Shown here: piece after piece, positions 39,269 through 51,062 of the stretch
How positions within the stretch are numbered: the first letter of the stretch is position 1
Layout of the letters: each line of letters begins with the position of its first letter
Assembly: GCF_000337095.1 (NCBI RefSeq)
Contig: NZ_AOIV01000010.1
Location: 1-64,000, forward strand
Length of the DNA stretch: 64,000 nucleotides
Source: Halogeometricum pallidum JCM 14848
GTDB taxonomy: Archaea > Halobacteriota > Halobacteria > Halobacteriales > Haloferacaceae
Reading direction: 5' to 3'
The notes under the pieces: model-generated
Told to the model about the DNA's origin: nothing
Seen by the model: the letters and a program-made list of their open reading frames with translations, nothing else
Database searches by the model: none
Program-made: the position numbers and the translations under genes

Positions 39269-40156
39269 TCAGAACTCCCCCAACCGCTCGGCGACCCGGT
39301 CGAACGCCTCGTCTGCGGCGTCCACCTCGGCGGCGAGGCTGAGGAAGCCGTGGACCATCGCGGGGTAGTGCTGGTGGACGACGCCAACGCCGAGGTCACG
39401 GAGTCGCGCGGCGTACCGCGTCCCCTCGTCGCGGAGCGGGTCGAACCCCCCCGTCACGACGCACGCGGGCGGCGTCGCCGCGAGGAGTTCGTCGTCTGCC
39501 AGGGCCGGCGCGGCGAACGGGCTGTACCGGTCGACCTGACTCCGGAGGTAGTGGTCGCGGAACCACGCCATGTCGGCGCGCGAGAGCAACGGCCCGTCGG
39601 CGTTCTCCTCGTAGGAATCGGTGTCGAACGTCTGCGCGAGGATGGGGTAGAGGAGGAGTTGACCCGTCGGCGTCGGCACCGGATCCATCTCCTCGCCGTC
39701 CCCCTCGTCGCCCCCGAGCGACCCGGCGTGCTCGCGCGCCCACTCGTAGGCGGCGACGGCGTCATCCAGCGGTTCCGGGAACGGATGTTCGGGGGCGAGT
39801 CGGTAGTCCACGCTGACGACGAGGCGGCCCGATCGGTCGGCGAGGCGCCGGCAGATACCGTCCGCCGAACCGAGGGTGCCGAGGGTCCACCCGCCGCCGT
39901 GGTAGAACACGAGAACGCCGCGCGTCTCCGACGGTTCCGGATGGTACGTCCGCACCGGAATCGGCCCGCGCGGCCCCGGTACTGCGAACTCCCGAACCCG
40001 TTCGACGGCCGGCGGATCCGTCGCCGCGAACGCCTCGTCCTCGACGGTCCGGGCGCTCTCGACCGACAGCGAGTACCACGGCGGCAACCCCGCTCGCTCG
40101 AACGTCTCCACGGCGTCTCGGACCTGCGGGTCTAGCTCGGGCGCGTGGCGCTCCAT
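39269..40156 (-). CDS. HSL-type alpha/beta hydrolase lacking the nucleophile segment
   Basis: 295 residues. The oxyanion-hole motif HGGGW (near 90) and the conserved VDYRLAPEHPFP are present. The Asp in GGFDPLRDEG and His in AMVHGFLS complete the late acids. The GDSAGG nucleophile motif that should come between is missing: after REHAGSLGGD the sequence jumps through EGDGEEMDPVPTPTGQ to LLLYP. Relative to usual family members, about 20-30 residues including the catalytic Ser appear to be gone in frame. It is probably inactive as an esterase, or a decaying copy. The reading frame is otherwise intact. Confidence 0.8.
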   Translation of the reverse strand: MERHAPELDPQVRDAVETFERAGLPPWYSLSVESARTVEDEAFAATDPPAVERVREFAVPGPRGPIPVRTYHPEPSETRGVLVFYHGGGWTLGTLGSADGICRRLADRSGRLVVSVDYRLAPEHPFPEPLDDAVAAYEWAREHAGSLGGDEGDGEEMDPVPTPTGQLLLYPILAQTFDTDSYEENADGPLLSRADMAWFRDHYLRSQVDRYSPFAAPALADDELLAATPPACVVTGGFDPLRDEGTRYAARLRDLGVGVVHQHYPAMVHGFLSLAAEVDAADEAFDRVAERLGEF

Positions 40157-40246
40157 ACCGGAGGGCCGCGGGGCGCGAAGAAAAAACGGCCGGACGGCGG
40201 CGAGAGGGGAGGGAAGGTCTTTGCGCCGCGCGGCGAACGGGGGGCC

Positions 40247-41563
40247 ATGGACGACTCACGCGACTCCGCCGACGCGGACCGGCGGACCGCCTCGGCCGAC
40301 GACCCGCCGACGCGCGCCGACGCCCGCGAACTCGACCGGACCGACCCCTTGGCGGACCTGCGGGACCGGTTTTTCCTGCCCGAGGGCGAGGCGTACATGG
40401 ACGGCAACTCGCTGGGACTCTGCTCCGCGGACGCGGTGGCGGCCCTCGACCGGGCGGTCGAGCAGTGGAAGACGCTCGCCGTCCGCGGGTGGACGGACGC
40501 CGACCCCGAGTGGTTCACCTACGGCGAGCGACTGGGCGACCGACTCGCCTCCCTCGTCGGCGCCTCGGGCGAGGAGGTGGTCGTCGGCAACTCCACGACG
40601 GTCAACATCCACACGCTGATCGGGACGTTCCACGACCCCGACCGCGGGGAGAAAATCGTCGTGAACGACCTCGATTTCCCGACGGACCACTACGCCATCC
40701 GCGCGCGACTCCGGGCGGCGGGTCGGGACCCCGACGACGCCCTCCGCGTGGTCGAGAGCCGAGACGGTCGCACTATCGAGGAGGCCGACGTCGTCGCCGC
40801 ACTCGACGACGACGTGGGGACGGTCTTTCTCCCCTCGGTGCTGTACCGGAGCGGCCAACTGATCGATATCGAACGCATCACCGAGGCGGCCCACGACGCG
40901 GGTGCGCTGGCCGGGTTCGACCTCGCGCACTCCGTCGGCGTCGTCCCGCACGACCTCTCGGCCGCCGGCGTCGACTTCGCCGTCTGGTGTCACTACAAGT
41001 ATCTCAACGCCGGACCCGGCGCGCTCGCGGGCCTGTACGTGAACGAACGGCACTTCGGCGTCACGCCGGACCTCGCCGGGTGGTGGGGCCACGAGAAGGA
41101 GACGCAGTTCGAGATGCGGCGGACGTACACCCCTGCCGACTCGGCCGGCGCGTTCCAGATAGGGACGCCGCCGATTCTCTCGGCCGCGCCCCTCGACGGC
41201 GCCCTCGACGTGACCGAGGACGCCGGCATCGACGCCCTCCGCGAGAAATCGCTGGCGCTCACCGACTTTCTCATCGGCCTCGTCGACGACCGACTCCCCG
41301 ACTGCGAGGTGGGGACGCCGCGGGAGGCGTCGCGCCGCGGCGGCCACGTCGCCGTCGAACACCCCGAGGCCTACCGGATCTCCGAGGCGCTGAAAGACCG
41401 CAGCGTCGTCGTCGATTTCCGGCCGCCGAACGTCGTCCGAATCTGCCCGTCGCCGTACTACGTCGGCTTCGAGGACGTGTACGAGGTGGTCGACCGCCTC
41501 GCGGGGATTCTCGCGGACCGAGCGTACGAACGCTACGAGACGCGCGGCGCCGGGGTGACCTGA
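40247..41563 (+). CDS. kynU: Kynureninase
   Basis: 438 residues, family length. This PLP-dependent enzyme cleaves kynurenine or 3-hydroxykynurenine to anthranilate or 3-hydroxyanthranilate and alanine. The cofactor lysine is Lys251 in HYKYLNAGPGALAG, and FLPEGEAYMDGNSLG at the N-terminus is diagnostic. A 30-residue disordered acidic leader precedes it. ATG 40247 is used. No tryptophan dioxygenase or formamidase gene lies nearby, so the pathway cannot be completed from this window. The gene before it is the nucleophile-less esterase, divergent. Confidence 0.92.
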   Translation: MDDSRDSADADRRTASADDPPTRADARELDRTDPLADLRDRFFLPEGEAYMDGNSLGLCSADAVAALDRAVEQWKTLAVRGWTDADPEWFTYGERLGDRLASLVGASGEEVVVGNSTTVNIHTLIGTFHDPDRGEKIVVNDLDFPTDHYAIRARLRAAGRDPDDALRVVESRDGRTIEEADVVAALDDDVGTVFLPSVLYRSGQLIDIERITEAAHDAGALAGFDLAHSVGVVPHDLSAAGVDFAVWCHYKYLNAGPGALAGLYVNERHFGVTPDLAGWWGHEKETQFEMRRTYTPADSAGAFQIGTPPILSAAPLDGALDVTEDAGIDALREKSLALTDFLIGLVDDRLPDCEVGTPREASRRGGHVAVEHPEAYRISEALKDRSVVVDFRPPNVVRICPSPYYVGFEDVYEVVDRLAGILADRAYERYETRGAGVT

Positions 41564-48156: not shown

Positions 48157-48927
48157 ATGCACGTCGAATTCGACCACCTGTCCGTTGAGAAGGAGGGGAG
48201 AATCGCCCGAATCACCCTCGACCGGACCGAACGGCTGAACGCCTTCCACTACGACGCCGTGCGCGACCTGGACGCCGTCTCCCAGTTGCTGGCCAGCGAC
48301 CAGAACCTCCGATTGGTCACCATCGAGGGTGCCGGCCGGGCGTTCTGTACCGGCATCGACCTGAAAGACCTCTCGGCCGACGAGATTGACATGAGCTACC
48401 ACCCCCCGTGGGAGCGAGCGCTGCGTCGCTTCGAGACGATGGAGCCCCTCGTCCTCTGTCTGATTCACGGCTACGCGCTGGGCGGCGGCTTGCAGCTCGC
48501 GCTGTCGTGTGACATCCGCGCCTGCACGCCCGACGCGAATCTGGGCCTCCCGGCCATCAACGAGAGTATCATCCCCGGACTCGGGACGTTCCGCCTCCCC
48601 CGGTACATCGGCCTCGGGCGGGCGAAGCGGATGGTCATCCTCGGCGAGAACGTCGACGGCGAGGAGGCCGAACGGATCGGCCTCGTCGACCACCTCGTCT
48701 CGGAGGACGGAATGCACGAGGAGTTCGAGGAACTGGTCGACCGCTACACGCGGGTCAACTCGCAGGGGGCGCGCCTCTCGAAGCAGGCGATGCTGACCTG
48801 TTTCGATCAGGACTTCGACGCCTTCCTCGAGCGCTACCTCGACCTCCAGACGGAGGCGATGACGGGCGAGGACTTCGAGGAAGCGACCAGCGCGTACGCG
48901 GAGGACCGAGAGCCAGAGTGGTCGTAG
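48157..48927 (+). CDS. Crotonase-fold protein without the usual hydratase glutamates
   Basis: 256 residues of enoyl-CoA hydratase/isomerase fold. Oxyanion-hole regions are present: GRAFCTGIDLKDL (near 65) and HGYALGGGL (104-112). Position 113 is Gln (GGGLQLA) and position 133 is Ala (LPAINE), where hydratases carry their two catalytic glutamates. A classic hydratase reaction is therefore unlikely; an isomerase, decarboxylase or thioesterase-like role, perhaps using Glu136, is possible. ATG 48157 (MHVEFDHLSV) is preferred, although 48118 is in frame. It is followed with zero gap by E1 alpha. Confidence 0.82.
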   Translation: MHVEFDHLSVEKEGRIARITLDRTERLNAFHYDAVRDLDAVSQLLASDQNLRLVTIEGAGRAFCTGIDLKDLSADEIDMSYHPPWERALRRFETMEPLVLCLIHGYALGGGLQLALSCDIRACTPDANLGLPAINESIIPGLGTFRLPRYIGLGRAKRMVILGENVDGEEAERIGLVDHLVSEDGMHEEFEELVDRYTRVNSQGARLSKQAMLTCFDQDFDAFLERYLDLQTEAMTGEDFEEATSAYAEDREPEWS

Positions 48928-50091
48928 ATGGACGGTAAGCCAACGTCGCGGCCGTCGCCGCGGACGAACGCCGCGGCGGGCGTCGAGCACCTCTCGCAGG
49001 CCGACCTGCGGGTCGAGACCCACCAGGTCGTGACCGCGGAGGGAACGGTCGACGAGGCGCGCGTCCCCGACCTGGCGGACGCGCAGTTCCGCGACCTCTA
49101 TCGGTGGCTGGTGCTCCAGCGGACGTTCGACGAACGGGCGACGAAGCTCCAGCGCCGGGGACAGTTGGGAACGTACGCCTCCGGCCGGGGACAGGAGGCG
49201 AGCATCGTCGGGAGCGCCTTCGCCCTCGCGGACGACGACTGGATCTTCCCCGCTGGGCGGGAGGCCGCGGCGCTGCTCATGCACGGCGTGTCGATGCGCG
49301 ACCTCCTGCTGTACTGGCGCGGCGTCGAGGACGCCTCGCGGATGGAGGGGGCGAACGTCTTCGGCGTCGCCATCGCCATCGGGTCGCAGATGCCGATGGT
49401 CACCGGGAAGGCGTGGGGTATGCAACTGGCCGGGGACGACGCGGTCGCCGTCGGCTACTTCGGCGACGGGGCGACGTCGACCGGGGCGTTCCACGAGGGG
49501 GTCAACTTCGCGGGCGTCCTCGAGGTGCCGGCCGTCTTCTACTGCCAGAACAACCAGTACGCCATCTCCCTCCCGTTCGCGGAGCAGACCGGCGCAGACA
49601 CGGTGGCCCAGAAGGCGCTCGCGTACGGCGTCGACGGCATTCGGGTCGACGGCAACGACGTTCTCGCCGTCTACAACGCGGTGTCGACGGCTCGGGCGCG
49701 CGCCCGCGAGGGGCGCCCCGTCCTCGTCGAGAGCGTCACCTACCGCCGCGGGGCGCACACGACCAGCGACGACCCCACGCGGTACCGAGAGGAGGAGGAA
49801 GTCGAGTCGTGGGCGGCGCGTGACCCGCTCGACCGCTACCGCACCTTCCTCGGACACCGCGACCTGCTCGACGGCGTCGACGAAGTGGCCGTCCGCGAGG
49901 AGGTCGACGCGATGTTCGACGAGGCGGTCGCGGCCGCAGACGACTACCCCCTCCGCGACGTCGACGAGATTTTCGTCCACCTCTACGAGGAACTGACGCC
50001 CGAACTGGCCCGACAGATGGAGTGGTACCGCGACTTCCTTGACGACCATCCGGAGATGGACGAGTACGTCCACCAGCGGGAGCGCGGATGA
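48928..50091 (+). CDS. 2-oxoacid dehydrogenase E1 component, alpha subunit
   Basis: 387 residues. The thiamine-diphosphate motif GDG (residues 179-181) and NN (208-209) fit the GDG-x(25-30)-NN pattern. The E1 alpha family signatures TYASGRGQEA and RRGAHTTSDDPTRYR are present. It decarboxylates a 2-oxoacid (pyruvate or branched-chain type) with the beta subunit. ATG 48928 directly follows the crotonase stop, and the stop overlaps the E1 beta ATG. No E2 or E3 gene is in the window. Confidence 0.9.
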   Translation: MDGKPTSRPSPRTNAAAGVEHLSQADLRVETHQVVTAEGTVDEARVPDLADAQFRDLYRWLVLQRTFDERATKLQRRGQLGTYASGRGQEASIVGSAFALADDDWIFPAGREAAALLMHGVSMRDLLLYWRGVEDASRMEGANVFGVAIAIGSQMPMVTGKAWGMQLAGDDAVAVGYFGDGATSTGAFHEGVNFAGVLEVPAVFYCQNNQYAISLPFAEQTGADTVAQKALAYGVDGIRVDGNDVLAVYNAVSTARARAREGRPVLVESVTYRRGAHTTSDDPTRYREEEEVESWAARDPLDRYRTFLGHRDLLDGVDEVAVREEVDAMFDEAVAAADDYPLRDVDEIFVHLYEELTPELARQMEWYRDFLDDHPEMDEYVHQRERG

Positions 50092-51062
50092 CGATGCCCC
50101 GCGAAACCATCGTTCAGGCGGTCAACGACGCGCTCCACACCGAGATGGCGGCGGACGACCGGACGCTCGTCTTCGGCGAGGACGTCGCCCGTTCGGGCGG
50201 CGTCTTCCGGGCGACCGACGGTCTGCTGGAGGCGTTCGGCGAGGAACGGGTGCGCGACACGCCGCTGTCGGAGATCGCCATCGTCGGGGCGGCCGTCGGC
50301 CTCGCGACCCACGGCTACCGCCCGGTCGTGGAGATCCAGTTCTCCGGTTTCCTCCCGCCGGCGTTCGACCAGCTCGTCTCGAACGCGAGCCGCATCCGCT
50401 GGCGAACCCGCGGACGGCTCACCGCGCCGATGGTCGTGCGGACGCCGTACGGGGCGGGCGTCCGGGCGCTCGAACACCACTCCGAGAGCCTCGAAGCGGC
50501 GTACGCCCACGTCCCGGGACTGAAGGTCGCGATCCCCTCGACGCCCGCCGACGCCAAGGGGTTGCTCACATCGGCCATCCGCGACCCCGACCCCGTCCTC
50601 TTCATGGAACCGAAGCGGGTGTACCGGTCGTTCCGCGAGGAGGTCCCCGACGGCGAACACGCCGTTCCGCTGGGCGAGGCCGCCGTTCGACGGGAGGGCG
50701 CCGACGTGACCGTCGTCTCGTGGGGAGCGATGATGCACCCGACGCTGGAAGCCGTCGACGAACTGGGCGTCGACGCCGAGGTAGTCGACCTCCGGTCGAT
50801 CTCGCCGCTCGACCGCGAGACGCTGCTCGCGTCGGTGAGGAAGACCGGCCGCTGCGTGGTGGTCCACGAGGCGGCGAAGTCGGGCGGGTTCGGCGCCGAG
50901 GTCGCCGCGACCGTGGCGGAGGACGCCCTCCTCTACCTCGAAGCGCCGATTCGGCGGGTGACCGGCTTCGACGTCCCCGTCCCACTGCTCTCGATGGAGG
51001 ATTACTACCCCCCCCAGCCGCCGCGGATCGCGGCCGCTATCGAGGAGACGGCGGAGTTCTGA
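50088..51062 (+). CDS. 2-oxoacid dehydrogenase E1 component, beta subunit
   Basis: 324 residues. Typical E1 beta regions: VFGEDVARSGGVFRATDGL, the TPLSEIAIVGAAVGLA segment and the C-terminal VTGFDVPVP...YYPPQPPRI. It forms the heterotetramer with the alpha subunit. ATG 50088 overlaps the alpha stop by four bases. The operon ends here: an 83-base gap and a convergent acetyltransferase gene follow, so lipoyl-E2 and E3 must come from elsewhere if the complex is complete. Confidence 0.92.
   Translation: MTMPRETIVQAVNDALHTEMAADDRTLVFGEDVARSGGVFRATDGLLEAFGEERVRDTPLSEIAIVGAAVGLATHGYRPVVEIQFSGFLPPAFDQLVSNASRIRWRTRGRLTAPMVVRTPYGAGVRALEHHSESLEAAYAHVPGLKVAIPSTPADAKGLLTSAIRDPDPVLFMEPKRVYRSFREEVPDGEHAVPLGEAAVRREGADVTVVSWGAMMHPTLEAVDELGVDAEVVDLRSISPLDRETLLASVRKTGRCVVVHEAAKSGGFGAEVAATVAEDALLYLEAPIRRVTGFDVPVPLLSMEDYYPPQPPRIAAAIEETAEF

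Follow-up and report, generated by a model that had tools for sequence, protein, structure and literature searches.

A crotonase clade with both hydratase glutamates replaced, encoded beside PDH-like E1 genes in haloarchaea

Crotonases serve as a model of the many acyl-CoA reactions that a single scaffold can support. DpgC, for example, is a crotonase-fold, cofactor-free oxygenase that makes an arylglyoxylate, and the carboxymethylproline synthase CarB keeps a Glu at the position of Glu164 of enoyl-CoA hydratase (ECH). In CarB, Gln111 lies three residues past the oxyanion-hole residue Met108 (PMC6542682). Changing either Glu to Ala abolishes the activity of AcuH (PMC5651017), and the E141A variant of DmdD has weak hydration left and no hydrolysis (PMC3660561). 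As for 2-oxoacid dehydrogenases, unassigned genes of this type are a known issue in haloarchaea, where one Haloferax complex is needed for isoleucine (PMC3235422).

We analysed a stretch of 64,000 nucleotides from Halogeometricum pallidum JCM 14848 (the window), in which a crotonase gene is followed by genes for E1 alpha and E1 beta. The crotonase (48157..48927, + strand, 256 aa; Pfam ECH_1, 1.6e-43) begins with an ATG at 48157 and ends with a TAG at 48925-48927, as read from the DNA. The ATG of E1 alpha (48928..50091, + strand, 387 aa; Pfam E1_dh, 1.2e-77) follows at 48928, leaving a gap of zero. The E1 alpha stop, a TGA ending at 50091, shares four nucleotides (ATGA) with the start of E1 beta (50088..51062, + strand, 324 aa; Pfam Transket_pyr and Transketolase_C; PDB 1um9, a 2-oxo acid dehydrogenase beta subunit, 3.7e-104), whose ATG begins at 50088. 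These coordinates bear out the zero gap and the overlap described in an earlier, sequence-only reading. That reading had also called the genes 'fused by translation'; the linkage is indeed tight, but the proteins are separate. The spacing between the crotonase stop and the E1 alpha start is the same in the relative G004 and is 1 nt in G030. A reading of the window's frames revealed neither E2 nor E3 beside the trio, so there is no complete OADHC locus at this site. A kynureninase-like gene (named by eye) is present at 40145-41563 of the window, ~6.6 kb from the crotonase; genes of the same BLAST cluster were seen ~4 kb from the crotonase in G030 (L037 13012-14409) and ~5 kb from it in a Chloroflexota locus (L074 15348-16610).

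The first protein is a member of the crotonase superfamily by both fold and Pfam ECH_1, with TM-scores of ~0.8-0.9 against solved crotonases. It resembles enoyl-CoA hydratase and 3-hydroxypropionyl-CoA dehydratase (5zai, 5z7r, 1dub) in fold, length and oxyanion-hole segment, and structural alignments with 5z7r and 5zai give 31-33% identity. Judged by sequence, the oxyanion hole is kept: Ile67 (codon 48355..48357, + strand) aligns with the first oxyanion-hole residue, which we take to be Ala98 of rat ECH, and Gly110 (48484..48486, + strand) with the second, presumably rat Gly141. Residue 67 varies in the alignment of the clade described below, while Gly66 and Asp68 on either side of it, and Gly110, are invariant. 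In contrast to these three structures, Gln113 (codon CAG, 48493..48495, + strand) stands at the position of Glu144 and Ala133 (GCC, 48553..48555, + strand) at that of Glu164, as concluded from alignment to PDB crotonases. Both catalytic glutamates of an enoyl-CoA hydratase are thus replaced. A Glu (Glu136; GAG, 48562..48564, + strand) is found three residues past the Glu164 position, and the loop after Pro-Gly is one residue shorter than in the same structures. The sequence-only reading had picked out these three residues correctly. No NCBIfam equivalog is within reach for this protein; the best scores 163.6 bits where the cut-off is 394.

Among the carboxymethylproline synthases (CarB and ThnE), CarB is a precedent for a Gln at the Glu144 position: Gln113 follows Gly110 as Gln111 of CarB follows Met108, a match by spacing only. 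However, the window protein has Ala133 where CarB keeps a Glu, and no sign of the carbapenem context of CarB and ThnE was seen around it. An AlphaFold model of the crotonase had a pLDDT of 92; the input to structure prediction was the locus proteins only, with the plasmid-derived row left out. We used the model for confidence and secondary structure, and not for placing Glu136 in the active site by coordinates. Residues 132-136 are modelled as one short helix, so that Ala133 and Glu136 would lie about one turn apart and on roughly the same face. Glu136 may reach the substrate from such a position. No earlier case of a Glu at this +3 position turned up in a literature search that lacked the main crotonase review (Hamed et al.).

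Orthologues in a search of 60 relatives were limited to G004 (97% identity) and G030 (87%), with the next proteins at ~40% or less. Scanning 392 genomes of the order gave two further members (G332, 68%; G145, 62%), and a scan of genome contigs gave 50% relatives in an Ardenticatenaceae MAG and in a MAG titled Deltaproteobacteria. Profile searches found members in 11 of 301 genomes of the former's phylum and 3 of 247 of the latter's (the starting MAG counted in each), and a plasmid collection added only Thermomicrobium roseum. The resulting clade has 21 members, picked by score and not by motif, from haloarchaea, Chloroflexota, the phylum of the deltaproteobacterial MAG and Thermomicrobium. We observed Gln113 and Ala133 in all 21 and Glu136 in 20 of them, at identities down to 36%. 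The single member with another residue at the last position (L075 6590-7306) has a Lys, giving Q-A-K. The ordinary crotonases in the same search output had mostly E/E/L at these positions and other letters in some; none had Ala133 or Glu136, and one had Gln113 together with the second Glu. In a tree with 39 ordinary crotonases, the 21 members fell on one side of a branch with an SH-aLRT of 100. On this sequence tree the Q-A-E clade is monophyletic across several phyla and both domains. The haloarchaeal members form a clade beside L031 and L032 (support 93), which fits one transfer, with bacteria as the probable donors.

We compared the neighbourhoods of 20 clade loci, within 8 kb, with those of 19 ordinary crotonase loci from related genomes. 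As some gene calls in GC-rich loci chose antisense frames, the counts rest on tblastn with named queries. An acyl-CoA ligase was present at 12/20 clade loci versus 3/19 controls (p 0.005, a value that, like those below, is indicative, since the loci are few, some are closely related, several sit at the ends of short contigs and kinship is ignored). When the distance was narrowed to ~2.2 kb, the ligase was still found at 12/20 clade loci and at 0/19 of the ordinary ones. E1 alpha was seen at 5/20 clade loci and 0/19 controls (p 0.03), as were glycolate/lactate/2-hydroxyglutarate oxidases (5/20 versus 0/19, p 0.03), with the E1 and oxidase queries in both cases picked after the loci had been seen. 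The LIV transporter was rejected as a clade marker (5/20 versus 3/19 controls, not significant). Overall, members of the clade are found in gene clusters of organic-acid breakdown across several phyla.

The ligases adjoining the crotonase are PaaK-like at L031, L065, L066, L067, L069, L071, L073 and L077, and are other AMP ligases at G145, L049, L074 and L075. Three PaaK-like proteins that were tested scored under the PaaK equivalog cut-offs, and the first ligase of L031 scored over that for benzoate-CoA ligase. In the Chloroflexota pairs of PaaK-like ligase and crotonase (L067, L069, L071, L073), the crotonase is of the same clade and its active-site residues are conserved, but its immediate partner is the ligase, whereas that of the window crotonase is E1. 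The G145 cluster consists of a ligase, a LIV transporter, a second ligase, the crotonase and a LutB-like protein, with a GlcD-like oxidase beside it. At ~9.5 kb from this crotonase, a complete E2-E3//E1 locus holds the sole E1 of the E1_dh type that was found in G145.

Several other loci were looked at individually. On the Thermomicrobium roseum plasmid NC_011961 (L049), the clade member WP_012642716.1 lies in a cluster annotated with aromatic-degradation-like genes, namely a ring-hydroxylating dioxygenase, a second crotonase, an AMP-binding protein and a ThDP enzyme. Right after the G575 clade crotonase comes a full-length indolepyruvate ferredoxin oxidoreductase (L070 10438-13944; 1271 bits versus 816), and, judged by eye, L068 seems to have a similar 2-oxoacid oxidoreductase upstream of its crotonase. 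In G332, the crotonase is on a 9-kb contig where neighbours (L038 2085-9154) resemble, by eye, urate oxidase, OHCU decarboxylase and allantoinase/hydantoinase, and a fragment like an AMP-ligase N-terminus (L038 1760-1894, by eye) lies just downstream of it.

The E1 pair has the E1_dh and transketolase domains of an alpha2beta2 E1, with the ThDP motif GDG...NN intact. E1 alpha best matched PDH and 2-oxoacid dehydrogenase E1 models and PDH structures; against TIGR03181 (pyruvate dehydrogenase E1 alpha) it scored 411.3 bits for a cut-off of 411.35, which is 0.05 bit short. Relatives of at least 65% identity, which we call E1-X and which form a haloarchaeal clade with it in the tree, were found in 19 of the 392 genomes of the order. 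In haloarchaeal OADHCs with E1-X, E1 alpha is 65-72% and E1 beta mostly 78-83% identical to the window proteins. The E1-X loci that were inspected usually have E2, E3 and an IclR regulator alongside E1, and the trio has the crotonase instead. NitT- or LIV-type transporters, a GntP permease, a GlcD-like oxidase or LUD proteins are often nearby, and these neighbourhoods suggest a 2-oxoacid derived from a 2-hydroxyacid. In G332, three separate E1-X copies of E1 alpha (C2, C6 and C17; L126, L128 and L127) were seen with NitT-type or TctABC-like transporters beside them. The window E1 had been thought specialised; by its sequence relationships it appears ordinary in kind and PDH-like, from a clade that normally has its own E2/E3 and is often near glycolate/lactate-type genes. 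The lack of E2/E3 held only beside the trio, and the idea of no E2 anywhere proved wrong, since the window's genome (G000) has two E2 loci, C23 and C38, along with six E1 alpha genes. With the C23 E2, the E2 of G145 shares 55% identity, inside the 53-60% range of E2s from E1-X loci; with the C38 E2 it shares 37%.

The crotonase and E1 were linked more often than expected: E1 alpha was within 3 kb of the crotonase at 4 of 18 genome loci against 0.18 expected, and with the window and one locus of a related pair left out the P value was 0.01. All three genomes of the order that have the crotonase also have E1-X (uncorrected P 1e-4, or 0.002 when the window's genome is left out). The converse idea, that E1-X is confined to crotonase-bearing genomes, was wrong, as E1-X occurs in 19/392 genomes and the crotonase in 3. 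In the E1 tree, haloarchaea and Chloroflexota have their partners in different E1 clades, as do the window's clade and L031/L070. This speaks for recruitment on more than one occasion, and one common ancestor of the crotonase-E1 pairing was not supported.

These results bear on the strongest alternative, in which nothing metabolic links these operon neighbours. On this view an accessory crotonase was joined once to an orphan E1 pair, and chance put E1 genes near the other crotonases, in catabolic islands where genes of this kind abound. The exact trio, which the sequence-only reading had proposed to look for elsewhere, is known only from three haloarchaea. The trio is accessory, since two congeners lack it at the same locus: G003 has carA and a GNAT gene adjacent with no trio between them, and the gap between these genes in G001 is too short for it. 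In addition, G000 has five other E1 alpha genes. Against this, the zero or 1-nt spacing is kept in three genomes, and the neighbourhood of crotonase and 2-oxoacid decarboxylase recurs above expectation (L031, L068, L070, and G145 at ~9.5 kb) with E1s of different ancestry. We consider the absence of a metabolic link unlikely.

Our preferred reading, which we hold tentatively, is that the trio is an accessory organic-acid operon in which E1, with borrowed E2/E3, makes an acyl-CoA, and a non-hydratase crotonase handles an acyl-CoA from E1 or from a CoA ligase. The E1 pair would decarboxylate a 2-oxoacid with ThDP and derive from a haloarchaeal complex that was once complete but whose own E2/E3 were lost, and it would most likely dock on the E2/E3 encoded at C23. 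Its product may be an acyl-CoA formed from pyruvate or from a close homologue among the short-chain 2-oxoacids. This acyl-CoA, or one made by a CoA ligase of the same pathway, would be the substrate of the crotonase. With the oxyanion hole kept and both hydratase glutamates lost, the crotonase is probably not a classical enoyl-CoA hydratase, and Gln113 and Glu136 may serve a different enolate-type reaction (isomerisation, C-C cleavage, decarboxylation or thioester hydrolysis). Two observations count against this: most clade members have no E1 nearby, and neither a ligase nor a transporter adjoins the trio. The earlier proposal of an unusual acyl-CoA reaction tied to a specialised 2-oxoacid decarboxylation is supported in part: the altered active site is a conserved trait of the clade, and 2-oxoacid decarboxylases recur near it in other lineages, but the neighbour of most members is a CoA ligase and not E1. 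A link of the crotonase to 2-oxoacid decarboxylation is likely, although it is not universal in the clade.

A role in branched-chain or propionyl-type degradation, with a BCKDH-like E1 and a hydratase that uses Glu136 as a displaced acid on methacrylyl-, tiglyl- or acrylyl-CoA, would follow the logic of classical valine/isoleucine catabolism. Among solved structures, 3-hydroxypropionyl-CoA dehydratase 5zai and crotonase 5z7r come nearest to the window crotonase, and the Haloferax complex needed for isoleucine is also in keeping with it. We nevertheless judge it improbable, since both hydratase glutamates are lost clade-wide, the top scores of E1 are to PDH models and structures and not to BCKDH, and the clade neighbours are CoA ligases and not a full beta-oxidation set. 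Equally improbable, in our judgement, is alpha-oxidation, in which the crotonase makes a 2-hydroxyacid or 2-oxoacid from an (aryl)acyl-CoA and nearby oxidases, E1 or indolepyruvate oxidoreductase yield an acyl-CoA one carbon shorter. Ligases, 2-hydroxyacid oxidases and 2-oxoacid enzymes do recur in varying combinations (L031, L066-L070, G145), and DpgC might serve as a precedent by analogy; but some members come from MAGs assigned to deltaproteobacteria, for which anaerobic life is likely, and the order of steps is guesswork.

The orphan E1 pair, and the six E1 alpha genes against two E2 in G000, could also mean that E1 alpha/beta has no need of E2 and acts as a carboligase or as a decarboxylase that forms aldehydes, with the crotonase binding its product; there is little chance of this, as the nearest E1 relatives are usually in complete E2-E3 operons and the genome has a compatible E2. 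A decayed or dead crotonase, acting as a scaffold or persisting as a remnant, would explain the absence of both hydratase glutamates, but was rejected as very improbable because Q, A and E are conserved throughout the clade, with the oxyanion-hole glycine kept across large distances, and the fold is confident (pLDDT 92).

Beyond the accessory organic-acid operon that we favour, the whole Q-A-E clade could represent a new crotonase reaction class, alpha-oxidising or C-C cleaving through Gln113 and the displaced Glu136, which in both archaea and bacteria supplies, or is supplied by, the decarboxylation of 2-oxoacids; we regard this broader reading as doubtful. A clade in which both hydratase glutamates are replaced across domains, and whose neighbours include 2-oxoacid enzymes and CoA ligases, provides a compact case in which a possible new activity can be tested. 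It also gives a handle on the orphan E1 genes of haloarchaea, for which it has been difficult to assign substrates.
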